Origin: Magnolia sinica
Lineage: Eukaryota > Streptophyta > Magnoliopsida > Magnoliales > Magnoliaceae
Direction: 5' to 3'
DNA length: 64,000 nt
Assembly (NCBI RefSeq): GCF_029962835.1
Contig: NC_080582.1
Coordinates: forward strand, 23,444,032 to 23,508,031
Each line of letters opens with the position of its first letter. Position 1 is the stretch's first letter. The notes beneath the pieces were generated by a model that worked only from the letters and a program-made list of their open reading frames with translations, had not been told where the DNA came from and ran no database searches. Position numbers and translations under genes: made by a program. Positions 22,796-64,000 of the stretch are shown piece after piece.

Positions 22796-25700
22796 GCCAG
22801 GATGGACTTCAACATATGTTCAAAGGAGTTACAGTGCAAGTTGGTGTTGGTCGATGTACGTACGTCGGTATGAGGTTTGATTGTTTGCAGAGTGTCCATA
22901 ATACAACATCTTCTCAAGTGAATATGCACCCTCACATAGTCTGGTGAAAGCATTTGATTTTTGTTTGAAGGGATTGCAGTGCAAGTTAAAGTGGATTGGT
23001 GTTATTTTAGGGGTTCGGTATGTTCTGGTGAATGTCAGTGTAGGTTTTCATTATTTCCAGAGTGTTATACCCTGATCTGACCTCAACCCAAGTGGATACG
23101 CACCAACTCCTATTTCAATGAAAGCGTCTGACGTGTGTTCAAATGGGATGTAGTGCAAGTTGGAGTAAATTGGTACTATTTTATGGGGTCGGTGTGGACT
23201 TCAAGTGTTTTTGGAGTGTCCATATCCTGATGTGACATCTTATCAAGTGGATCCGCACCCACTTGTAGTTCAATGAAAGTGTTTGACATGCACTTGAAGG
23301 GACTGCAGTGCAAGTGCGAGTGGATCGGTGTTATTTTAGGGGTTCGGTGTAGGTCAGTGTTCGTCGATGTAGACTTTGATGTTTTTGGAGTCTCCGTACC
23401 TTGATATAACATCTTATAAAGTGGATACTCTCCACTCGTAATTTGGTGAAAGCGTTCGACATGCATTCGAATGGATTGTAGTGCAAGTTAGAGTGGATTA
23501 ACATTATTTTAAGGGTTTTGTGTGCATTGGTGTATGGTTTGAGTATATCCAAAGTCTTTGCACCCTAATGTAACATCTTCTTAATTGGATATGCACCCAT
23601 GTTTAATTTGGCGAAAGGGATTCAACGTGTTTTCAAATAGGGTGCAATGGAAGTTGAAGTAGATAGGTGTTATCAGATTAGGTTAGTCGATGTTCATCGA
23701 TATAGGCTTCAAGTATTTTCGAAGAATCCATACCCTAATGCAGCGTCTTCTCAAGTGGATACACACCCACTTGTAGTTTAGTGAAAATATTCGACATGTG
23801 CTCGAATGGGCTGCTGTGCAAGTTGGAGTGGAATGGTGTTATTTTAAGGTTCGGTGTAGGTCGATGTGTGTTAGTGCGGGCTTCGAGTGTTTCTGAAGTG
23901 TCTATACCCTAATGTAGCATTTTCTCAAGTGGATACACACCCACTCGTAGATCAGTGAAAGCGTTCGATGTGCGTTCGCAGGGGCTACAGTGCAAGTCGA
24001 AGTGGATCAATATTATTTTAGGAGTTCAATGTGGGTCATTGTGCGTCGATGTGGGCTTCGAGTGTTTCTGAAGTGTCCGTACCCTAAAGTAGTATCTTTT
24101 TTAAGTGGATATGCATCCACTCATAATTCAGTGAAAGCATTTGACGTACGCTCAAAGGGGTTTTAGTGTAAGTCAGAGTAAATAAGTGTTATTTTAGGAG
24201 TTCAGTGTGGGTCAATATACGTCCATGTGAGCTTTGAGTATCTCTGAAGTGTCTATACTCTGATGCAACATCTTCTCAAGTGGATACGTACCCACTCATA
24301 GTTTAGTGAAAGCATTCGATGTGCGCTCAAAGGGGTTAAGTGCAAGTCAGAGTGGAATGGTGTTATTTTAGGGATTCGGTGTGGGCTTTGAGTGCTTTTG
24401 GACTGTCCGTACCCTAATGCAGCGTCTTCTTATGTGGATATGCACCCACTCATAGTTCAGTGAAAGCATTCAATATGCGCTCGAAGGGGCTACAGTACAA
24501 GTCGGAGTAGATCAGTGTTATTTTAGGAGCTCGGTATGGTTTAATGTGCGTCGGTGTGGGCTTTAAGTATTTTCGGAGTGTTCATACCCTAAAGCAGTGT
24601 CTTCTTAAGTGGATACGCACCCACTCATAGTTCGGTAAAAGCATTCGAAATATGCTCGAAGGGGCTGTTGTGCAAGTTGAAGTAAATCAGTGCTATTTAA
24701 GGGGTTCAGTGTGGGTCAGTGTGAGCTTCGAGTCTCTCCGAAGTGTTTGTACCCAGATGTAACGTATTCTCAAGTGCATATACATACACTCGTAGTTCGG
24801 TGAAAACATTTGATGTGCGCTCGAAGGGGTTGTAGTGCAAGTTGGAGTAAATTAATGTTATTTAGAGGTTCGATGTTGGTATGCGTTGGTGTGGGCTTCG
24901 AGTGTCTCAAGAGTGTCCATACCTTAATGCAACGTCATCTCAAGTTGATACGCACCCACTCGTAGTTCAATGAATGTGTTCGACGTGCACTCAAAGGGGT
25001 TAGAGTGCAAGTTGGAGTGGATCAGTACTATTTTAGAGGTTTAGTGTGGGTCAGCGTGCGTTGGTGTGGGCTTCAAGTATTTCCGGAGTATCTGTACCCT
25101 AATGCAATGTTTTCTCAAGTGGATACGCACCCACTTATAGCTTGGCGAAAGTGTTCGACATGTGCTCAAATGGGCTGTGGTGCAATTCGAAGTAAATCAA
25201 TGTTATTTTAGGGGCTTGGTGTGTGTTAGTGTAGGCTTCGATTGTTTCTACAATGTTTGTACCCTAATGTAGCGTCTAGTCAAGTGGATAGGCACCCACT
25301 CGTAGTTTGGTCAAAGCGTTTGATGTGCGCTTGAAAGGGTTGCAGTACAAGTCGAAGTGGATCGATGTTATTTTAAGGATTTGGTATGAGTCAGTGTGCG
25401 TCGGTGTGAAAATCGAGTGTTTTCGAAGTGTTCATACCCTGATGCAATGTCTTCTCAAGTGGATATGCAACCACTCGTAATTTGATCAAAGCGTTCGACG
25501 TTCACTCGAAGGAGTTGCAGTATAAGTCAGAGTGGATCAGTGTTATTTTAAGAGTTTGATGTGGGACGGTGTTCGTTGGTGTGAGTGTCGAGTGTTTTCG
25601 AAGTGTCCGCACCATAATGCAGTTTCTTCTCAGGTGGATACGCACCCACCTGTAGTTCGGTGAAAGCATTTGACGTGCGCTTGAAGGGGTTGCAATCCAA

Positions 25701-26012
25701 GTTAGAGTAGATCGATACTATTTTATGGATTCGGTGTGGGTCAGTGTGCATTGGTGTAAGCTTCGATTGTTTCCGGAGTATTTGTACCTTGATGCAGTGT
25801 ATTCTCAAGTGGATATGCACCTACTCATACTTCGGTTCAAGCATTTGATGTGCGCTCAAATGGGTTGCAGTGTAAGTCAAAGTAGATATATACTATTTTA
25901 AAGGTTCAATGTGGGTCGATATGGGCTTCGATTGTTTTCAGAGTGTCTGTGGTCTGATATAACGTCTTCTCAAGTGGATACGCACCCACTCGTAGTTCGG
26001 TGAAAGCGTTTG
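22796..26012. repeat. Satellite-like tandem array, about 19 units of about 175 bp
   Basis: The marker 'gtggatacgcacccactcg' recurs near 22918, 23091, 23248, 23421, 23585, 23755, 23929, 24105, 24280, 24434, 24609, 24774, 24944, 25119, 25284, 25459, 25634, 25809 and 25974. Spacing is mostly 175 bp, with shorter units near 165 and 155. Each unit also carries 'cagtgcaagt', 'gttattttaggggttcgg' and 'gtaccctaatgcagcgtc'. Units differ by many substitutions, so the array is old. It is non-coding. Confidence 0.95.
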
Positions 26013-34416: not shown

Positions 34417-34836
34417 TATTTGAGATCTGACCCTGTAAAAGAACCTTAATCTGGATTGAAACAAATAAGAGAAAATGAAAATCCAAGCAAACACACAGGA
34501 AACACATGATTTTTATGTGAAAAACCCTTGCGGAAAAAAAAAATCATGGCACAAAGCGACAATCAATCGACTATTCAGAGAAGATTACAAGGATGAAGAA
34601 AACTTACAGCCAAAACCCTAGCTCTTTCTTTCTCTTGGAGGCTCTAAAAAAATTGCAACTCACTCTTAACCCCAATATAACTAACTTTAAAAGCCACCAT
34701 TTCATGCAGAAAATGTCAAAACTACCCCTCCAAGGGTCCACTAACACTTGGGCCTTATTAACATGTGAAACATGAGTCATATAAGTTCAGAAATGTGAAT
34801 AGACCCAATAATGATTTTGGTGTCATAATTTTAACG
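34417..34836 (-). repeat. Copia 3' LTR
   Basis: Aligns throughout with 53110-53574: 'gattgaaacaaataagagaa', 'cactcttaaccccaatataa', 'tccactaacacttg', 'aatagacccaataatga'. The outer dinucleotides have decayed. A purine-rich GTGGAGGT (minus strand, about 34837-34846) precedes it, as expected for a polypurine tract. Confidence 0.9.
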
Positions 34837-37699: not shown

Positions 37700-38070
37700 C
37701 CTAAGGCATAACCCGCTATAAATGTCAACACATATACCATGGTGGAATCACACTACAATGGGCCTTATGTACATCCTATTGGGCCTCGACCCATGGGCCT
37801 TCAATACATCAAATGGGCCTCATAACATGGGTCTCGTATATATCAAAGTGGGTCTCGACAATGGGCCACAAACATATCAAGATGGGCCCAATCACATGGG
37901 CCTCGCATACGTCACAATGGGCCTCATAACATAGGCCTCATATCTATTAAGGCGGCCTCAACAACGGGCCTTATACAAATGAAGGTGGGCCTCAACAATG
38001 GGCCATAAATATGGTAAGTGGGCCACACCACATGGGCCACATGTATATCAAATGGGCCACACTCAAATAT
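37700..38070. repeat. GGGCC-rich degenerate tandem repeats in S2
   Basis: Repeated 'atgggcctc' with spacer 'atacatcaa' in units of about 20-30 bp. Equivalent but longer tracts occur in S1 at 40900-41570 and 42280-42600. Confidence 0.7.
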
Positions 38071-40899: not shown

Positions 40900-41570
40900 T
40901 GGGTGGTGTGCACATAATCACACACATATGGTTAGCCTCACGCGTCACAATTGGGCCTCACCCATATAATGGGCCTCATGCATATAATGGGTCTCACATA
41001 AGGGTCTCATACATCACAAGGGACCTAATCACATGGGCCTCATACAAACAAGATGTGCCTCATATAATCACAATGGGCCTCATACATTCCCAATGGGCCT
41101 TATACAATCACGATAGGCCTCATACAATCACAATGGGCCTCATACAATCCCACAATGAGCCTCATACAATCATAATGGGCCCCATACACAATGGCCCTCA
41201 AACAATCACAATAGGCTGCATATAATCACAATGGGCCTCATACAATCACAATGGGCCTCATACAATCAAAATGGGGCCCATACACAATGACCCTCATACA
41301 ATCATGATAGGCCACATATAATTACCACGGGCCTCAAACAATCACAATGGACCTCATACAATCATAATGGGCCCCATACACAATGGCCCTCATACAATCG
41401 CGATAGGCCGCATATAATCACAATGGGCCTCATATAATTACAATGGGCCCCAGGTAATCACAATGGACCTTACATGGTCACAATGGGCCTCATATAATTA
41501 CAGTGAGCCCTATATAGTCATAATGGGCCTCATATAATTACAATGGGCCGTATATAATCATAACGCTATA
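40900..41570. repeat. 20-bp minisatellite in S1
   Basis: 'aatgggcctcatacaatcac' is repeated head to tail about 25-30 times with variants (gggcccc, aggccgcat). The ORF at 40899-41225 is a frame through this repeat and not a gene. Confidence 0.9.
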
Positions 41571-53109: not shown

Positions 53110-53301
53110 TGTTGGAGATCCGGCCCTGTGGAAGCACCTTAATTTGGATTGAAATAAACAAGAGAAAACGAAAATCCAATCAAACGTATATAAAACGCAT
53201 GATTTTTACATCGAAAACTGTTGTTAAAAAAAACCACGGCACAAACTCATCAATCTACTATTCAAATAAGATTACAGGGATAGAGAGAACATACAACAAA
53301 A

Positions 53302-53344
<43 letters not shown>

Positions 53345-53574
53345 GAGGCTCTAAAAAGCATTTTAAAAAAATAAAAATCGTATGTCACTCTTAACCCCAA
53401 TATAACTAACCCTAAAAACCACCCCTTCATTAGAGAAATATCATAAATATCTCTCCAACGGTCCACTAACAATTGAGCCTTGTTAACATGAAACACAGGT
53501 CATATGGGCTCAAAAAAGAAAAAAGAAAAAAAAAGAATAGACCCAATAGTGACTTTGGTGCCACAATTTTAACA
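53110..53574 (-). repeat. Copia 5' LTR
   Basis: On the minus strand it begins TGTTAAAATTGTGG and ends ATCTCCAACA, an intact TG...CA pair. It is 465 bp and aligns with the 3' LTR. It contains a CT microsatellite (53304-53341) that the other LTR lacks. Confidence 0.9.
53304..53341. repeat. (CT)n microsatellite inside the Copia LTR
   Basis: About 19 CT repeats at the place where the 3' LTR has only 'ctctttctttctcttgg'. Confidence 0.95.
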
Positions 53575-54073
53575 GGCCACAACACGTGAACTTGCATATT
53601 TTAGGCATAAGTTTACGTTATTCCCATTGATGGGGCCCATCTAATTTTTTTCAAGCTTATCTTTTCATAACTACGGTTACCCCTAATCTGACTGCACTAG
53701 ATCTGATGGCCAGTAGATCAACACGTGGTGGTACCACTACAAGCAAGATCAAGATGAGATCTCCGCAGCAGATGCGATCTTCAGGAGGAGATCGTGAAGT
53801 GTAAGAAAAGTTGTCGATACGAGACACATTTCAACACACGTGTGAAAATTTGTTATAAAGACACATTGCAAAATAAGAGAGGCCATCGGTACCATAATGA
53901 CCTAAAAGGATTTTCATGACTCCTGTTTTAATTGGCAATGACTTTTCTTGTGACACATGACTGAATACAAGTGGTTCTACTTGGGAAGACCTATAAGTGA
54001 CAAGCTTTAAAACGCAAGATTACCGCAACACAAGGCAAAACATATTTGGCCATAAACCTCCAGAAGCAAGTTG
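53575..54073. other. Foldback-type remnant, then unassigned DNA
   Basis: To about 53680 the text 'gccacaacacgtgaacttgc' matches M18 and completes the repeat hit by Copia. The rest is unrecognised. Confidence 0.55.
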
Positions 54074-54110
54074 CACTACAAGAAAGTGAGCCATTACCGA
54101 CTCTTTTTTT
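54074..54110 (+). mobile_element. CACTA-type (En/Spm) terminal sequence
   Basis: CACTACAAGAAAGTGAGCC, preceded by TTG (possible 3-bp duplication), has the canonical 5' end of plant CACTA elements. The opposite end (CTTGTAGTG) was not found in the remaining 9.9 kb and may lie outside. Confidence 0.6.
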
Positions 54111-54189
54111 TTCCCTTCCGATGACCAATGTGAACCACGGGCAAAGGTAAGAATCGTTGGGCTTCGTGTGGCTACTGACGACAGAAGGA

Positions 54190-54901
54190 AATGAGCGCCG
54201 CCGAAAGTGTGGTGTCAGGGGAACTCTTTGCGCTAATTAAAAGAAACGAGCGTTCGTTTCTTATATCATCTCTCTACCAGCGCCCTCCACCCCATTCCCT
54301 CTCTCTCTCACTCCCAGCACCGTCCGCCCCCATTCTCTCTCTCTCTCTATCTCTCTCTCTCGGCGCCCTCTTCCGCTATTCCCTTTCCCTCCCTCTCTCT
54401 CTCTACAACTTGTAGCAGATCTAGTTTGGATTTTCTTTAGCCTTTCCCCCTTCACTCTTTTTTAGGGTTTTGAATATGGCTTGGAGCAAATCTAGTTGAG
54501 GTCGAAGCATTTGGTGGAGCGTTTCTTGTAGAAATTGCATTTTGTGAGAGAAGTCCCGTTTTTTGATTTTTTAGGCGTTTGGAGTTATAGATCTGATTGG
54601 CATTGAATTGCAAATTCCAGACGTGCTGAAGAAAGCGGAAGAGGAGTTCGATTTTCAGACGTGCAGGGGCCTAATTTTATCATGTGAGGTGGGTTTTTTC
54701 AAAGGGGTTTTGAAGATTCTCGAGAAGGACGAGCATAATTCTATGGGGTGGGACTCGAAGAGGTTTTTAAGATAATTCTTGAAGTGAGTTTTGATCCTTG
54801 CAAGGAAGCGACAGGATCTTGCCATGGTTTCATGATCCCATTGCAGAAGACTAGGGTTTTGGGGTGGGTTTTGCGCAGCAAGGCCATTTGGTTTTTTCTC
54901 C

Positions 54902-54944
<43 letters not shown>

Positions 54945-55180
54945 ATCTCACCGACTTCCCCTAAATTCCCATTGACTTCATTTTTTAGTGCTTTCGCAAT
55001 TCATTCTTGATGCTCAAAGATCGGTTGGGTGGTTCCATGATGAGTCTAACTCGGGACTCACTGACGATTCCAACTACTCCAAACCCCGACTGCTACTTAC
55101 TGTCTTAGAATTTCTTGGTGTTTGTTGTTGTTTGATATGTGAGAAGTGTGTTTGGTGTGAGTTCAATTGTGGCTAGAGGT
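54190..55180 (+). promoter_or_regulatory. CT-rich leader-like region (possible transcript 5' end)
   Basis: CT tracts at 54297-54410, then 'agggttttg' type plant leader text and short exon-like GA-rich stretches. A second CT array lies at 54903-54941. An inverted repeat AAGAAACGA/TCGTTTCTT lies at 54241-54262. No long frame starts here. It resembles the 5' UTR and first intron of a plant housekeeping gene, but no gene follows in frame. Confidence 0.35.
54903..54941. repeat. (CT)n microsatellite
   Basis: About 19 CT repeats. Overlapping ORFs on both strands are artefacts. Confidence 0.95.
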
Positions 55181-58100
55181 ACCTCAATAATATGCTTTGG
55201 ATTTATTATAGGCAATTTGGATGACCTGCCGATGAGCGCAAACTCACACATGACATGGCAGGGTACCACATGGGAGGCATAATCTCTGATTAATATTAAA
55301 ATATTGTTGCTTTATGGCCATGAAGTCCGTTACAGCCATAAAAACTAAAAACCCCATTGTGGAATACCTGATGTATTTCATGCATGCTAACTGTTTGATG
55401 AAATGGCTCAACAAGGAATGTTTTGGTGGTTAAAACTGTTTGTCATGTCATAGATTAGATGACCTAGTCCAAAATCTCCCTGATCAGATGATTTTAGCTA
55501 TTTAGCAGTGGAATGTTTCTCGTGAACTTGAATGGGCACAGTTTGAACTGCAGGGGATGCAAATGGAAATTACCTAGAGTGGGAAAGAAGACTGCTAATA
55601 AACTCATTTGGCTTCCTAGTTGTTGCTTGCATATGTAATAAGAAGGGCTTTACAATCTAAGTAATTTATCTGTTTTGTAACGAGGTTTCCTGAAGCTAAT
55701 GGTGAAACAACATGTCATGTTTGGAGTCATCAAACTAAATATACCAAGAGCCATGCCAAATACTATTTTAGGTATGGCTTTCAATACAATTTGAGCTACA
55801 AATTTTTGATATGTTCATCTAATGAATTGATAATCTGAGGGAGCAATCATATATGTGCATCCTAAAATAAAATCATGGTTTGTTATTGGATCACTGGGTT
55901 TCCAGCCTATCTTTAAGCCTCTCATTGTGGTTAAGGTTCTGTTTGGCAGCGGGACTAAAAGTAATTTGTCGTAGGAACGTTTCCTGCCAGGCTCTGTTAT
56001 TGGCCTTTTCCCATGGGAATTGTAATTTTGAATAAGTTCAGAAATCTTGGAATTTAAGAGCATTATAGTTTGAACACAAAATGACCAAAGAAAAGATGGA
56101 AAAGGTTTAATCATTATAGTTTCAACACTAATAATTGCTATGAGGGACCATTTTTTCCTTTTGGGCAATGCCCATGTGTCTTCTTGTTTGTAGTTTTTGG
56201 TGCTATCTCAACGCCTCTTTAATGAAGCTTGTTGTTATGTTTTTTTTATTATTTTTTATTTTTTTTATTTTTTTTATTTTTAATTTTTAAATTTAAAAAA
56301 GGATGGAAAAGGTTTAATAATTGCTCTTGGAAGGCCATGTTCCTACTGTAATTTAGTTTTAGCTCTACCAAGCATTGCCTAAAATAAAAGCCATTGTGGG
56401 CTTCTATCCTTCAATCCTTCAGCTCATGGGAGTGAATTTGGTGTTTCTATGCTTGTCATGAGCAGTGGAGTTTTGTTGGGCAGTATCCTATCAAATTCCA
56501 TGGTTTTAAGTTGTAGTGCAGAATTGCAGGCCAGTAACAGCCCCAAGGATCTGTTCTGATTTTGACTGATTCATAGAGTTTGGTTGTGGCCCCATAAATT
56601 ATTTCTATGGGCTGCTCAGATATCGGACATTCTTTTAGTGATTCATGCATTGCAACATCTTTTTGTTTCTGAATTGATGCAAGTGGAGTCGATTTTGTTT
56701 TAACTGGGTTTACTGGTTCCTCCGTTTTTGTGTTTTTTTTTTTTTCCATGCTTCTTCACTGGTACTTCTGTATGTAATAAGTGATGAAATTTGGACAAAA
56801 TTCTCATCATCTGATATGTACCCGAAGTTGAATTTTGGAAGTATTGCATTTATGTAGAGCAATAGATGACTATTCCCAGGGATCTTTTAGGGTTATATTC
56901 CTTTTTCCTTCTCATTGCATCTATTAGTTGGCATTGATGTTTTGTTTGGAGCTGAACCTTTCTGATTGTCTTGCATTAGTGTGGATCTGATACTTGATGC
57001 AGTAGGAAAGTCCATAATAATGATATAAATGATTGAGTGATTGAACTGATATTTGGAATAAAATGTCTCCATTCCATGCTAAGGCTTCCTTATCAAAAGC
57101 TAGTTGTAAAAATACAGAATATCGTTACTGTATCAGTATGTTATGCACAAATTTTTTTTCTAATCATTCTTTGCAGTGCAGTTTGAATGGGATAGCTATC
57201 CAAATTAGAACTTTTTTGAATTTTTGCTCATTGTACTATTCCATTATCCATTTATTTCTAATCTCCTCCTCTATGAACTTGTGCACATTTGATGTAACCA
57301 GACCATCCAGTGTATAGACTGCTCATTGTGAAATTTAATTTCTGCAGTTCATTTTCCATTGGATCAGCTCTTCTTTTTTTCTTTTTTTCTTTTTTTCTGA
57401 AAGATCCAATGGATCAACTCATTCTCTTCTTTTTTATTAAAACCGTGACTTTTTCCTTCTCACTATTGAAATGGGATGTCGTATCTGGGAAACTCTGAAG
57501 TTTGTTATGTCGTGACTGATGTAACTAGCCAAACAAAAGCACTACTGATTCAGTTATAATGCAGTAGAAGGTTCTGCACACATTATCTTGACTTTTCTTG
57601 TTTGTGAACTGTCGTTATTTTACATTACTTTCATTTCATTGGTGTCATGTTCAAGTGTCAAGGCAATTTTATATGCTCCAAAGATGAGACGCATCAGGTT
57701 TTCTGTTTGTTACTGTTATTAGGTGGGAAGGCGAAAATCAGCCTGCAAATGAGAAGGGTAAGCTGTGTTGCACGGAAAGCCCCAAGTTTTAGTGGTCCAC
57801 TAATGCTTTCAAACCAAGCTTCTGCAAACAGTTTATCCTTTTGACTGTGAGGGCCCAACATGCCTTATCTACTTAAAGTACCTCTTGTTCTTGTTCTTGT
57901 GTAGGAACTTGTTCTTGTTCTTGTTCTTGTGTTTGTTGAGGGCCCAACATGCCTTATCTACTTAACGCTTATTGGTGTTTGTAGGAACTTTCTTCATAAC
58001 ATGTCATTTGCCACTAACATGTGGGTGGAAGCACTGTTGGTTGTGGATGCTTTTACTCAGTTTTCTATTATTCATTGTAAAACAATCATGCCTCAATGTT

Positions 58101-60693
58101 CGAATGACAAAGCCCAATCTTCTAGATTCTTTTGAATTTCCTTAGCGGCTTTGTAGTTATGGGATTGATTTCTTGTCTTTGTCTGTTTTCATTCTTAATA
58201 ATTTAATGTTTTCTTTCAAAAGAAATGCATTAAATTATGAAGCTGACCTATTGATCTGCATTCCTGCCAATCTACAGGAGCTGGAAAGGGAGAGGACTGC
58301 TAGGTCAGATTTGGAAAGGGCTGCCCATGTTGATTTATTAAACATCAACACAGAGATTTTTCCCTTCATTTCTTAGGTAATGTGACGAAGAACTTTGGAA
58401 AAGGATTAGTTTCATTCGGTTCTGAAAAACTTGAACTATCAGTAAAGAAAAATTCAGATCATACAAGCCTTCTGAAGACATGACCTTTGATGTGCATTAG
58501 CTCTGCCGTCACCATACTTATCGTGTTAAGCTGTCAATTGTGCCCTTCCTTTTTGATCTTTCTATTCTATGTTATTCAATTCCCTGGGCACTTAAATGGC
58601 TCTCATGACAGTTATATTCTTTTGGGAAGCTTATGAGACATTCTTTTACGGTAACCTCTCACTGTCCTTATCGTAGTAACCAGCGTCTTACACTAGCATG
58701 TGTTTGATGCTTCATTACAGTTTCTTTTTTCATAAAAGTCTCCACTATAGCGTTTGGTTGCATTAAATGGCCAAAGGTGCGTTTGGTTGCATCAGTGATT
58801 GACTTGATCCTTCCAATCATGGTAGTAAGTGTTTGTTGTGAGCAGCTAACATCTGATCATGTATATCCTCCACGGGAGTGTTGATTTTGCAAGAATCTGC
58901 AAGGGCAGGTCTAGCAACAAGCAGAATGGAAGAACTTTCTGCATAAGTTTTATTATGCTATATTTCCATGAATGTTTCTTGTTGGATGTGTATATTAACG
59001 TTCTTTTTGATAAGTAGAATGTCTATGAACAGATCCACTTTGCTGTATTTTTTTGATAAGAAGGAAGACCGGTCTACATCAAGAGACTTGGTAAAGCTGA
59101 ACCAAACAAGCTTATGCACATTACTAGAATACACAACTACTTAAGGTATCATGTACATGAGTATGAGAGGGTCTTCCTCTATGAAAGTTCATTACTATGA
59201 GGACGTACCTAATAAGATGAAGGTTCATTACTTCACCTTACCATTTTCATATTCATTTCAGTTCTGATATGGAATAATTTTTGTTCTGGATATGGCAATA
59301 TGCCTTCAACAAAGTGGTCCTCAAGAACATTGATGCTTGCAAGCAGCTCTCCACCATCACCTGAACTTCGCTCGGACCGAACGGTAACAGCTCCGCCTAC
59401 TGAAGTTTCTTCGCCCGGAAAATATTCAAAATTTTCGGTGCTTTTTAGTAGACTTTCTTATTCATTTCCCATTTTTGTGTTATTTTCGGAATTGTTAATA
59501 ATGACTAGGATTTCTGTTAATTATTCGGTAATGTCGATTAGTGGGTGATTGTTATGTTATACTGTTTAAGATTACTATGGTTTTCTTTTGATCACTCTCT
59601 CTTTCATCTCTACTGTACACGTGGCACATATTGAGGGCGATTGGGACCATTAATCAAGTGGTCAGCCGTATAAATGAACTGTAGAAATAAAAAAGAGAGG
59701 GGATTGGACTATCTTGTCTGTCACATCATTGATTTGCAAATGGAGGGTTTAGAAAGGTTGGGGAAAAATTCACACATTGGTCTAATTCTAATAGGCTAGA
59801 GTTGCACCTGTTATTTTCTTTTTAATAAGCCACAGTATATCCACATGGTGGCCTTTCATATTGACAAACCATGTGGCACATATACAGTGGAGATGAGTTG
59901 ATGAGAAAGGCAAAATCTTGCTAATGGTGGATCATGTCTTCATAAATAGCTTGCCACTCATTGGATCATAAATCCAACTGATTAAAAAAATGCCTGTTCA
60001 CATTTCTTTCTTGGATTTCTATTGTTCTACTTTTGTCATTTTTAATTTACTCTTGATCTTAAAAATTCAGTTCTTTTGATTTTTATTTATTTGTTTATTT
60101 TTATTAACAATGACTTGACTGTTGAGATAAGAAGAAAGAGTAGAATCTTAGTGAGTAAAATGTGAAGGATGGTAAAAACTACAATTCATCAAACTTGCAA
60201 GGAGTTTTGTGCATAAAGGTCCTATGTTTTGGGGATAATGACCATTGATTTGAAGGAGCCCATAATGGATGTTAGTGCTTAAAAACTTCCCAGATCGGAT
60301 GATTCTAACCCGTGAATCAGTGGCCTACAAATAAATTGCTAGGGATAACAATGGTACAAAATAAAATCCCATTGAGCTCTCTGTACAAATCATCGGATCA
60401 ACGTAAAATGGAGAAAATCGATATCTCCTGCTTCTTTTGGATTATATAGAGGATTAGGGTTTTCATGTTGGGACCTCGAGCACAACATCCAGGTCAGTGA
60501 GTTTTCCTCAGATCTGAGATTTTTTTTCCTGCGATGTCATCGTTTTCCGCCCTTCTACTTTGATTTTCCTTGATTTCTTGTCAGATCTAAGGTTCTTATG
60601 TGATATATGGTGTAGATATCTTGAAAAATGAATGATATCTTTTTATAGATCGCCGATAAAATGCTCTATACCATGTCCATTGTCTTCCTACAG
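55181..60693 (+). other. Intron-like DNA with unassigned exon-like pieces
   Basis: T-rich, intron-like composition on the plus strand. Candidate exons follow acceptors at 55212 (NLDDLPMSANSHMTWQG, stop soon after), 58278 (ELERERTARSDLERAAH, charged, coiled-coil-like, then a stop) and near 59300 (serine/proline-rich). I recognise none of them. A tandem copy of 'gagggcccaacatgcc' lies at 57850-57960. Confidence 0.35.
57850..57980. repeat. Direct duplication of about 90 bp
   Basis: 'gagggcccaacatgccttat' occurs at about 57850 and again at about 57940, each followed by 'ctacttaa' and a 'gtaggaact' block. 'cttgtt' hexamers lie between them. Confidence 0.8.
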
Positions 60694-60781
60694 GGATGCT
60701 AACACTGTTAATGATGTTATGGAATTTGTACTTCAAAACTTCACAGAGATGAATAAACTTTGGTTCCGAATGCATCATCAG
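60694..60781 (+). pseudogene. VPS35: Single exon of a VPS35 retromer subunit (fragment)
   Basis: Between acceptor CCTACAG and donor CAG|GTTAGT, one frame reads DANTVNDVMEFVLQNFTEMN followed by KLWFRMHHQ. This is the conserved VPS35 segment usually written NFxEMNKLWVRMQHQG. VPS35 is the cargo-binding retromer core, acting in endosome-to-Golgi/vacuole sorting. No preceding or following VPS35 exon was found in the window. The next exon would begin with a glycine-proline. W-F and Q-H changes suggest relaxed constraint, so it is a captured or decayed fragment. Confidence 0.75.
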
Positions 60782-61563
60782 GTTAGTTGAAATTTTAGAG
60801 AAATATTGCTATTGTGTTTGGGCACAAACAGTAAGTGCATGGCATAAATGAAAAACTGGAGCATGGGGGTTTGTGAAGGGAAGATGCAGTGCAGGTTTTT
60901 ATTATTATTATTTTGTAGAAATTGGTTATCTGAAATGTTGATCAATTGCTTGAAATGTCTGACCACATAAGATTTTTTAATACAAAAAAGCTTGACCAAT
61001 TACTCAACTCTGTATTGGATTGTTATTGTAGGGCCCCCTAATCTCTGATCAAACAGCTTGTGGGGCCCACTCCTGGGCTTTCGTGGAACCAACTCCTAGG
61101 CTGCAGCATCACTCGTCATCGAGTTCAAAATCAAAATGGACATTTCCTATTACACATTTCTTAAGTTGCTTATGTTTTATAGTTATCTGCTCTAGGAGTA
61201 GCTGAATAATTTTTAAGACCTACGACAGTACACTCAAATATCTACATTTTCTACACATTCGGCTTGAGCTTTAGGCCATTCATGTGGGTGTGTTACTACA
61301 AACCTTAAGCTGATGAAATTAAAAATGTTGGAAAATTGCATTTACATGATGTTGATAAAACCTAATTCAATTGCAACAGTCAGTCCCAGGTTATTACTGT
61401 AATGTTCAGATTCTAGTTTTTTCTCCAGCTTTTCCTGTTTGTGTTTTTGTTTATTGAGTTGAAGTGATATATAATTGATGAAGTCTTGGAAATTTGCCTT
61501 TTCTATTTGTCATAGTTTTTATGTTTCTATTTCCAACACCATGCTTCTGTGTCTTATACTAGT
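60782..61563 (+). other. Intron-like DNA
   Basis: T-rich, with donor GTTAGT at its start. 'tgtggggcccactcct' near 61061 is a foldback-repeat relic. No exon is recognised. Confidence 0.4.
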
Positions 61564-61602
61564 TACGTCCACAGAGATGTGAAGCCTAAAAATTTTCTAC
61601 AG
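61564..61602 (+). pseudogene. Protein kinase catalytic-loop fragment
   Basis: After the acceptor-like ATACTAG, the frame reads YVHRDVKPKNFLQ, the HRDxKPxN catalytic loop in the form with FL used by casein kinase 1-type kinases. Only 13 residues match, and no other kinase motif is near. It stands 13 bp from a Copia primer-binding-like site. Confidence 0.45.
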
Positions 61603-61615
61603 GATCAGAGAACTT

Positions 61616-61627
61616 GCTCAGATACCA
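61616..61627 (-). other. Copia-type primer binding site of a second element
   Basis: Minus-strand TGGTATCTGAGC differs by one base from the initiator tRNA-Met site and directly follows an LTR-type end CAACA. Confidence 0.6.
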
Positions 61628-61990
61628 TGTTGAGTGCAGACAATTTTAAGTGATAGAATGCAAGATATGATATCTATAAACCTCTAGTACCAAATGCAGG
61701 AAGAATCTAGAATAGCTAGGAGGATTGGAGAGATCCAGAAAGCAATATAGTTGCAAGTTTGTCATCACAAAAGAATTACAGGAATGCCATTACAAATCAT
61801 CCCTCAACAAGTACAGCTGTCTGTTAATATGCATGGGTGATTGATCTTTCTCAAAGTATCTGGGTATCATGATTCCGGGAAAATCAGTACCAATTCATGT
61901 GAAATGGATCAATTATACTTTACCTGGCCGTGCTTCCATTTGTATGTTTTACTTGCATTTCTGAATTTGAAATGGTGATGTATGGAGTGA
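61628..61990 (-). repeat. Candidate Copia LTR remnant (minus strand)
   Basis: Plus-strand text starts 'tgttgagtgcagacaa' right after the primer site, so the minus-strand LTR would end ...CAACA. The outer end is uncertain and no polyprotein remains. Confidence 0.4.
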
Positions 61991-62695
61991 ACCACTTGTA
62001 AGGCTTCCCCTAGGATCTTGAAGAGGACCTTGGGTCATAAGGTTCTAGTTCTTACATATATGTTGATGATTTTACCGGCATGAACTTGAAGAATGTCCAC
62101 ATCAGTGAGAAAGTTTATTCCTATTCTGATTTGTAGAGTAGACAAGAGACTTAATTCTCCTCAATGAATATTTCATGGTAGTTTTAGATCTTGATTTAAT
62201 ATCCCAAATGGGTTGTTTGTTATGGGTAAGTTGCAAGGAAATTGAAATCTGAGCCATAAAACTATATGTTTGTCCACTCAATGGATTAGTGACTTCTAAT
62301 ACTTCCATTCTCTTTACACAGGCCATCTAACTGGAGGAAAAAGTGAATCCGTTTTCACGACTTCATGTTGGGTGTCCATAGTCGCCTTCAAGTAAGAATT
62401 TTCACGACTTCATGCTTAGTGAGGCATGCATAACAAGTGATTTCTTGTTTAGAAGCCCGCAATATAACTTCATGCAAGCCATGTACTATCTGTTCATTAC
62501 CTCACATTTATGTAACATAGTTTGTTATTCCTCTAATTGATAACGGTCGCATTTGAGTAGTTTGTTATTCCTCTAACTGATAATGTTTGCATTTGATTAT
62601 CTTAATATTGGGGCATGTTGTTTGCTTGCGGTCGATCACAATGCATCATTAACATGAGAGATGCATCAGAGTAGACTTCCTTTTTCTCTATCCAG
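61991..62695 (+). other. Intron-like DNA with short duplications
   Basis: 'ttttcacgacttcatg' occurs at about 62353 and 62398. 'gtttgttattcctctaa' occurs at about 62520 and 62561. No coding segment is recognised. Confidence 0.5.
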
Positions 62696-62756
62696 GGTCT
62701 GTGTACACCGGAGTAGTCTTCTACAAGAAGTTGTGTGGAGTATCCATTATTCAAAG
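62696..62756 (+). pseudogene. UKL: Uridine kinase-like / UPRT exon fragment
   Basis: Between acceptor TATCCAG and donor CAAAG|GTGAGC the frame is SVYTGVVFYKKLCGVSIIQR. This matches the start of the uracil phosphoribosyltransferase domain in plant uridine kinase-like proteins (SVYTGV.FCK.LCGVSIIR). Those enzymes take part in pyrimidine salvage. No flanking UKL exon was found, and the usual cysteine after F is tyrosine. Probably a captured or decayed fragment. Confidence 0.7.
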
Positions 62757-64000
62757 GTGAGCTTTTATGCAAGTATTGAATTTAGATTTTAGGCATTAAA
62801 AACTAAGCGAGTGTTTTGAGATAAATATGAGATTTTGTTTCAAATAGAATGCAGTCACGTGATATCAATATTCAGCCCCTTGACTTTATAATGACATATT
62901 GAAATATGAATATATGTGACTATTTCATCAGAGCTTTATTCTTTTAAAATGTCTGTACTATTGTGAAGCTCTTCCTGTAGGTTTGTGCTGTTTGTGTTGA
63001 ACTCTTGCTAAGAACTCCGATTTCCATGAAACTCCATGGATCTCAATTTCCAAGCGAATCTGTTTTTGTGGAAACATATTTCTTGTGAAAGAGATTGCCT
63101 ACGCTGCTTGGGTATTGGGAAAGCCATCCTCAGGCATTCCTCAAAAACTTATTTGGTTTCTCAAGAGCCACTTTGCAAAGCAAAAGCCAACTGCATTGTT
63201 TTGCAGGCTTCTTCAGTGTAAACATAGGCTTGATTCTTCCATAACACAAATGTTGATTTTCTCCTCTTTAATTCAATTATATTTGTTGACCAATTGAAAA
63301 GGAGTTTTGAGTCTCAGGGTTCAAGATTGAAGAATTGAACTTGAGACTTTCTGGGGTTGGAGAACCAAGTATGGTAGAAAGTTGAGTTTCCTTGTTCTAT
63401 CTCGTTTGTTTTATTTAGTGAAAGGAAGTAATTTTTAAATATGTGATCTTTAATTGAAATTGGCCATTTCTGTAATAGTGTTTCCATAGCCACATGTTTT
63501 TCATAGCTGATCAGGTTCATTTTCCCACTTCATTGTGGTGGAAGACTGCTGATATTGGTTTATTTCTTCCTAGATGTGAAATTGTCTAAAAAATTATCTG
63601 GATATCTGGGCCCTGTGCAAGTTTGATTCATAGATTTTTGTAGTAACCTGGAAAATACAGAAAATAGTTGTTAATACTTGTAAAACCATGTTCTTGTTGT
63701 TTTTTTTTTTTTTTTTTTTTCCATGTAGAATTATACACGCGATTGTTGAGCCTTTCAGCTGTTAGTTGCTTTCTGTTCCACACAAAACTGTTTCCTATCT
63801 CTTCTTATGTTGTTAGTCTCCCTATATTGTTACATTCTATTCCTACACCACTCGAAGCTCGGCTCACATTCAGCTGGTTCCAAGGATTCCAATCTATGTG
63901 CGGGCACTGTAAAGGAATAACAATTCTTCCACTGTCTCTCTCTGTCTTTGTTACCATTGCCAATTTAATACCCGACTCAGGCAAGTCACAACTCAACTCA
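62757..64000 (+). other. Intron-like DNA to the window end
   Basis: T-rich with a poly(T) run at about 63700-63721. A short open stretch at 63036-63221 may be exon-like but matches nothing I recognise. Confidence 0.4.

Follow-up and report, generated by a model that had tools for sequence, protein, structure and literature searches.

Exon-sized pieces of unrelated nuclear genes that follow one another on the plus strand behind a CACTA-type terminus raise the question of whether a single capturing transposon carries them or whether they lie side by side in separate insertions. At the Magnolia sinica locus treated here (the window, i.e. the whole 64,000-nucleotide stretch of DNA analysed, is C10:23444032-23508031 of a 1.84 Gb genome), the initial annotation had proposed one captured chimera at 54074..63000. 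According to our analysis, a single non-autonomous CACTA DNA transposon of the gene-capturing kind (Pack-CACTA element) very probably spans the plus strand from 54074 to 65978, with 11,905 bp in total: positions 54074..64000 lie in the window and the remainder in the stretch continuing beyond it (L009, in which L009:3978 is equivalent to window position 65978). The annotated start is indeed a family boundary; the annotated end was set too early, the true end lying outside the window. The element is of a known kind and a member of a large, many-copy modular family with common gene pieces; the sense orientation of these pieces is its interesting part.

Termini and extent of the element

The left terminal inverted repeat CACTACAAGAAAGTG (54074..54088) and the right end read inward (TACTACAAGAAACTG) match at 13 of 15 positions; relative to the left terminus CACTACAAGAAA at 54074, the inward right end TACTACAAGAAA is one base off, at the outermost position. 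Taken alone, the CACTA 12-mer is weak in the window (two matches with at most one mismatch versus 0.60 expected, a number reached by 13 of 100 shuffles); the annotated CACTA terminus is exact at 54074-54085 and strong as a family boundary. In a genome search with 54050-54700 (265 first-look candidates, best 40 scored), 22 of the 53 match rows begin exactly at query base 25, which corresponds to 54074, and in the search with L009:3500-3990 (757 candidates, best 40 scored) 30 of 43 match rows stop exactly at L009:3977. The element sequence ends at L009:3978 with TTTCTTGTAGTA; its last base differs from GTAGTG, a change also present in the siblings k13 and c5, the former of which has an intact target-site duplication. 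Both ends are thus family boundaries, and a mosaic of repeated modules fills much of the interior: The siblings compared cover the element except 56221-57909 and 58126-60366, and 58960-59460, inside the latter gap, proved to be repeated when searched in the genome.

The expectations of the initial annotation for the region beyond 64000 were not borne out: Instead of the predicted CTTGTAGTG the right boundary reads CTTGTAGTA, which is not the CTRR of the Helitron alternative either, and the right flank is TGA in place of a TTG duplication (left flank TTG at 54071..54073). Exact 3-bp duplications (GCA, CTA, TAC, ACT) were found in four of the six copies checked with both ends; the window copy and c5 have no matching one.

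Helitrons are characterized by 5' TC and 3' CTRR without duplication, Mutator-like elements by a 9-bp duplication and usually long inverted ends. That one of these captured the pieces has a vanishingly small probability: Gene fragments are carried by both kinds of element (part of the review PMC13317346), but the ends of the element are CACTA-type, its right end is not CTRR, its inverted ends are short (13/15 bp) and its siblings have 3-bp duplications, so that both origins were rejected by the element ends.

No transposase was present among the 25 Pfam families shown of 27 matched by 128 ORF stretches of the element (in this set, 121 of the 141 element ORFs of at least 38 aa agree letter for letter, and six stretches are without such agreement with the element frames). 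Transposase_21 is abundant elsewhere in the genome (1669 first-look candidates); by eye, none of the best 150, which were scored, overlapped the four intervals in which left and right ends are linked (see below). Cut-and-paste mobility, with the transposase presumably supplied in trans by other CACTA elements, is what we infer from the element ends, from an interior in which no transposase match was seen and from the many Transposase_21 genes in the rest of the genome.

Other repeats in the window comprise a tandem array of approximately 13.5 copies of a 175-bp unit (23705-26007), tandem arrays of TGGGCCTCATA-like units (41026-41563 and 37780-38004) and a repeat pair of 70% identity (53112-53573 and 34419-34835), one copy of which is situated just left of the element.

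Captured gene pieces and their parents

The three annotated fragments were observed as claimed, and three further captured pieces (SAUR, SEC14/SFH, VAMP) had been missed. For VPS35, a module at 60367..61271 (plus strand), common to c-family CACTA elements and the C19 copy, holds a 187-bp block (60683..60869) of intron end, exon (60694-60781, 88 bp) and intron start that is 91% identical to the host gene on C6. The exon keeps its AG and GT splice sites, and 60695-60781 matches Vps35 in Pfam (PF03635, E 1.8e-9) and PDB (VPS35, E 7.5e-7). The host gene itself lies at C6:3057030-3074385 with its exons in order; a local VPS35 gene was rejected, as no other VPS35 exon was present near the window on C10 among the matches listed (best 62 of 85 candidates), in order or otherwise. 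At four further loci (L035-L038; C2:125483314, C16:49130356, C9:31061268 and C3:81520526), positions 502-725, approximately, of the VPS35 profile are found in one piece, with internal stops in three of the four, as if another part of VPS35 had been copied without introns.

Thirteen VPS35 copies (the window element and 12 siblings) have ten substitutions (nine in 13/13 copies, one in all ten that reach the site) and a 4-bp deletion in common in comparison with the gene. Because of these common changes, the copies are most simply read as descending from one capture that then spread into several CACTA types; some of the substitutions could have arisen in the parent. The elements that carry the piece are unlike one another in their left ends (c, s and c5 types) and in their neighbours. 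That the pieces make up a functional chimeric gene, or are exons maintained by selection, would be in line with both splice dinucleotides being retained in 11 of the 13 copies, with the sense orientation of the confident pieces and with the leader-like left end; this explanation is nevertheless very improbable, since differences from the gene are found at 6-9 of 87-88 sites in the exon and at 4-8 of 85-99 in its flanks, i.e. the exon diverges as fast as or faster than the flanks, and six of the 13 copies contain a frameshift (1-bp exon deletion) and four a stop. Selection on the VPS35 exon was rejected on these grounds, and no sign of selection for the protein was seen in the 13 copies compared with the gene. 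As parts of a Pack-CACTA element, the coding pieces would rather be carried as passengers than as selected proteins.

For the kinase loop annotated at 61564, the corresponding kinase-like block (intron end and exon start, 61468..61608, plus strand) is 88% identical to a locus on C7, whose frame resembles a protein kinase by reading (Pkinase E 0.026 over 31 aa), and the piece itself contains a HRDVKPxNFL motif by reading; its Pfam match to Pkinase reaches only E 0.041. The first base of the block is the exact stop of the preceding module in the siblings c4, c12 and c5, and its exon is cut at 61608. The segment just past the truncated exon (61603-61640) presumably resembles the region beside the primer-binding sites of plant LTR elements and is perhaps a joint with retrotransposon sequence.

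Within a kinase-UKL module (61512..63572, plus strand; 94-96% identical in the C17, C13 and C19 copies), the exon at 62696..62757, which we take to be UKL by name, is flanked by AG and GT and resembles uracil phosphoribosyltransferase: Positions 62698-62757 have a uracil phosphoribosyltransferase as best PDB match (E 0.011) and no Pfam match. The frame starting at 62697 was wrong and matched nothing relevant. Three UPRTase loci exist in the genome, none of them matched by DNA among the 40 scored. Parents were therefore found for two of the three annotated pieces, the C6 gene for VPS35 and the kinase-like locus on C7; the parent search fell short by DNA for UKL.

The additional pieces are likewise on the plus strand. 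A SAUR fragment at 54575..54772 matches residues 17-49 of Auxin_inducible (PF02519, E 9.5e-5; 23 bits, below the curated cut-off of 26.3). The repeated module 59058..59306 contains an exon of a SEC14/SFH lipid-transfer protein, of which 59060-59173 matches SFH5 in PDB (E 1.4e-9) and no family in Pfam; it is followed by another repeated module (59306..59460), whose copies form a set of their own. Further to the right, 63831..63949 is a module common to the C17, C13 and C19 copies, and the right-hand modules beyond the window include a VAMP fragment (L009:3298-3396, E 5.7e-5, below the Pfam curated cut-off). In a sibling element on C1 (L016:9329-9947), pieces of the RNA polymerase second subunit are present in sense orientation (Rpb2 families, E 1.7e-10 and 4.6e-13). 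Fragments such as SAUR and remorin mark the genome as that of a land plant.

Linkage of the modules across the genome

The genome was searched with six modules, namely left end, SEC14, VPS35, kinase, UKL and right end. For the linkage count, the C6 parent and 14 second pieces were dropped from the 54 rows of the VPS35 search, nine 37-bp rows from the 40 of the UKL search and 24 of 40 SEC14 rows without the whole SEC14 block; 13 second pieces were merged among the 53 left-end rows, and among the 43 right-end rows two second pieces were either merged or left out and one short row, lying inside a match on the opposite strand to it, was removed. Among the matches listed, 62 linked module pairs within 20 kb were found at 26 loci, all 62 on the same strand, versus 0.37 expected and a maximum of 3 in 300 trials by random placement on a model of 19 contigs of equal length. 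The order left-SEC14-VPS35-kinase-UKL-right is kept in 56 of the 62 pairs; the six reversed pairs all derive from two adjacent elements at C12:39281610-39293355. The same modules thus recur in other elements with fixed order and orientation, and at C12, C19, C1 and C6 a left end is linked to a right end on the same strand (spans of 8-17 kb); all six modules together are found in the window copy only, among the matches listed.

A competing reading, that two CACTA insertions lie side by side and have never moved as a unit, the right one (with the VPS35, kinase, UKL and VAMP pieces) having lost its left end, would accommodate the mismatched duplication of the window copy and the differing closest relatives, among the siblings compared, of its left part (L040/L041) and its right 5.6 kb (C19 copy); it is made distinctly improbable by three observations: at C12:39285321-39293355 a single strand carries the left end, the SEC14 and UKL modules and the right end in unchanged order; left and right ends are also linked at C19, C1 and C6; and no internal CACTA terminus was found in the element, an 8-mer at 56511 excepted. 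A hybrid that arose in situ would be a variant of this reading and is counted within the main explanation. The annotated single chimera behind a CACTA terminus is accordingly upheld, because a right terminus exists and occurs together with the left end at other loci, two of the pieces have parent loci, and the matches listed near the window contain no further VPS35 exon.

Under the explanation as one Pack-CACTA element, the modules would have come together when neighbouring, related elements of the same orientation recombined or were excised aberrantly, and the window copy may be a hybrid in which the left half of one element was joined to the C19-like right half of another, an origin that would explain its mismatched target-site duplication. 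The two adjacent elements on C12 are related, gene-carrying CACTA elements in the same orientation, which is the arrangement proposed to yield hybrid elements. This tandem pair and the mismatched duplication are what is expected under the proposed hybrid-element capture; together with the hybrid make-up they fit this route, albeit without proving it.

Orientation, possible transcription and known systems

The CT-rich, leader-like region of the initial annotation was recovered: The motif TATATCAT at 54262 is followed by a pyrimidine-rich tract up to 54420 (plus strand; 87% C+T in the 100-mer at 54295), and a second CT tract is located near 54887 (83%). The first 600 bp of all 13 left ends examined, which represent five sequence types, contain a 100-mer that is 85-93% pyrimidine, and a TATA-like word (loose pattern) is present in 12 of these ends; four right ends read inward show 52-65% pyrimidine and a TATA-like word in each. 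From composition and motifs, the left end is a putative rightward promoter and leader; transcripts starting there would cross the sense exons and may splice them together. Given this leader-like left end and the soybean precedent Tgm-Express1 (see below), transcription of the element is plausible.

In a two-strand Pfam scan of the element and parts of six siblings (ORFs between stops; 266 plus and 260 minus in total), ten captured genes at E < 1e-4 were sense and none antisense: Vps35, Synaptobrevin, Auxin_inducible, Ribosomal_S5, SKA1, Sulfate_transp, LRRNT_2, Rpb2 (two families, one gene), Remorin_C and Meth_synt_1. The window element contributed 64 plus and 64 minus ORFs (one being the wrong-frame UKL stretch; the minus ORFs were also scanned as a set of their own, A6), the siblings 115 plus and 106 minus as well as 87 plus and 90 minus ORFs; in the sibling sets A2 to A5, 115/121, 106/111, 87/97 and 90/90 listed ORFs were entered, with low-complexity ORFs and those across the joint of two stretches left out. 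Eight of the ten genes were placed on a plus-strand ORF; SKA1 and Meth_synt_1, for which follow-up scans located no ORF, are assigned to the plus strand because their sets contained plus ORFs only. SEC14, UKL and kinase are also sense and were excluded from the count, since they had been found on the plus strand by reading.

The ten-to-zero distribution gives 0.002 in a two-sided sign test with thresholds chosen after the results. A chance run or few independent captures would be a rather unlikely source of such a strict orientation in view of this value and of the nearly equal numbers of plus and minus ORFs scanned, even though the genes are only ten, the siblings have modules in common and the minus strand gains matches at looser thresholds (11 plus, with CLP_protease added, versus one minus, DUF2722, at E < 1e-3; 17 versus three at E < 0.005). 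We tentatively propose, with somewhat less than even confidence, that, in this genome, CACTA elements gain or keep host gene pieces only in sense relative to a promoter-and-leader left end and that the pieces pass between subfamilies as exon cassettes, a modular exon-shuffling whose directionality would stem from selection against antisense pieces or from capture tied to transcription. A sense-only rule for CACTA elements was not encountered in the partly covered literature on captured-piece orientation and Helitrons (PMC3288121), a coverage that does not establish its absence. If true, the rule would tie transposon transcription to the capture or survival of gene fragments; one genome with many siblings, common modules and identifiable parents makes the direction choice of captured exons testable.

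Host-gene capture by En/Spm-type elements is known from the Tpn1 family of morning glory, to which the Magnolia element is likened by description, not by sequence. In Chenopodium, CACTA-like elements carry gene fragments upstream of transposase domains (part of PMC8978399); both are CACTA elements with host gene fragments, and no transposase domain was found in the Magnolia one. The Pack-CACTA elements of Arabidopsis, rice and maize are similar in being non-autonomous, with CACTA ends, captured coding DNA and several loci per element (for maize, see PMC8903248), and in the proposed capture route through tandem neighbours of the same orientation: In Arabidopsis, two insertions next to each other, deletions at their termini and a resulting hybrid element enclosing the intervening DNA are described (review PMC13317346, in part). 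In contrast to these accounts, as far as the cited parts extend, the Magnolia modules occur in elements whose left ends are clearly distinct, and the confidently identified pieces are in sense orientation. The closest precedent, judged from part of PMC1947982, is the soybean CACTA element Tgm-Express1, in which five unrelated host fragments are spliced as exons into chimeric transcripts that originate from the promoter of the host gene F3H; internal transcription starts are thought unlikely there, which speaks against assuming an internal promoter in the Magnolia element. Both elements combine CACTA ends with unrelated host fragments of exon-intron structure; whereas Tgm-Express1 is a single, transcribed 5.7 kb insertion in a gene intron, the Magnolia element is an 11.9 kb, possibly transcribed member of a many-copy modular family.
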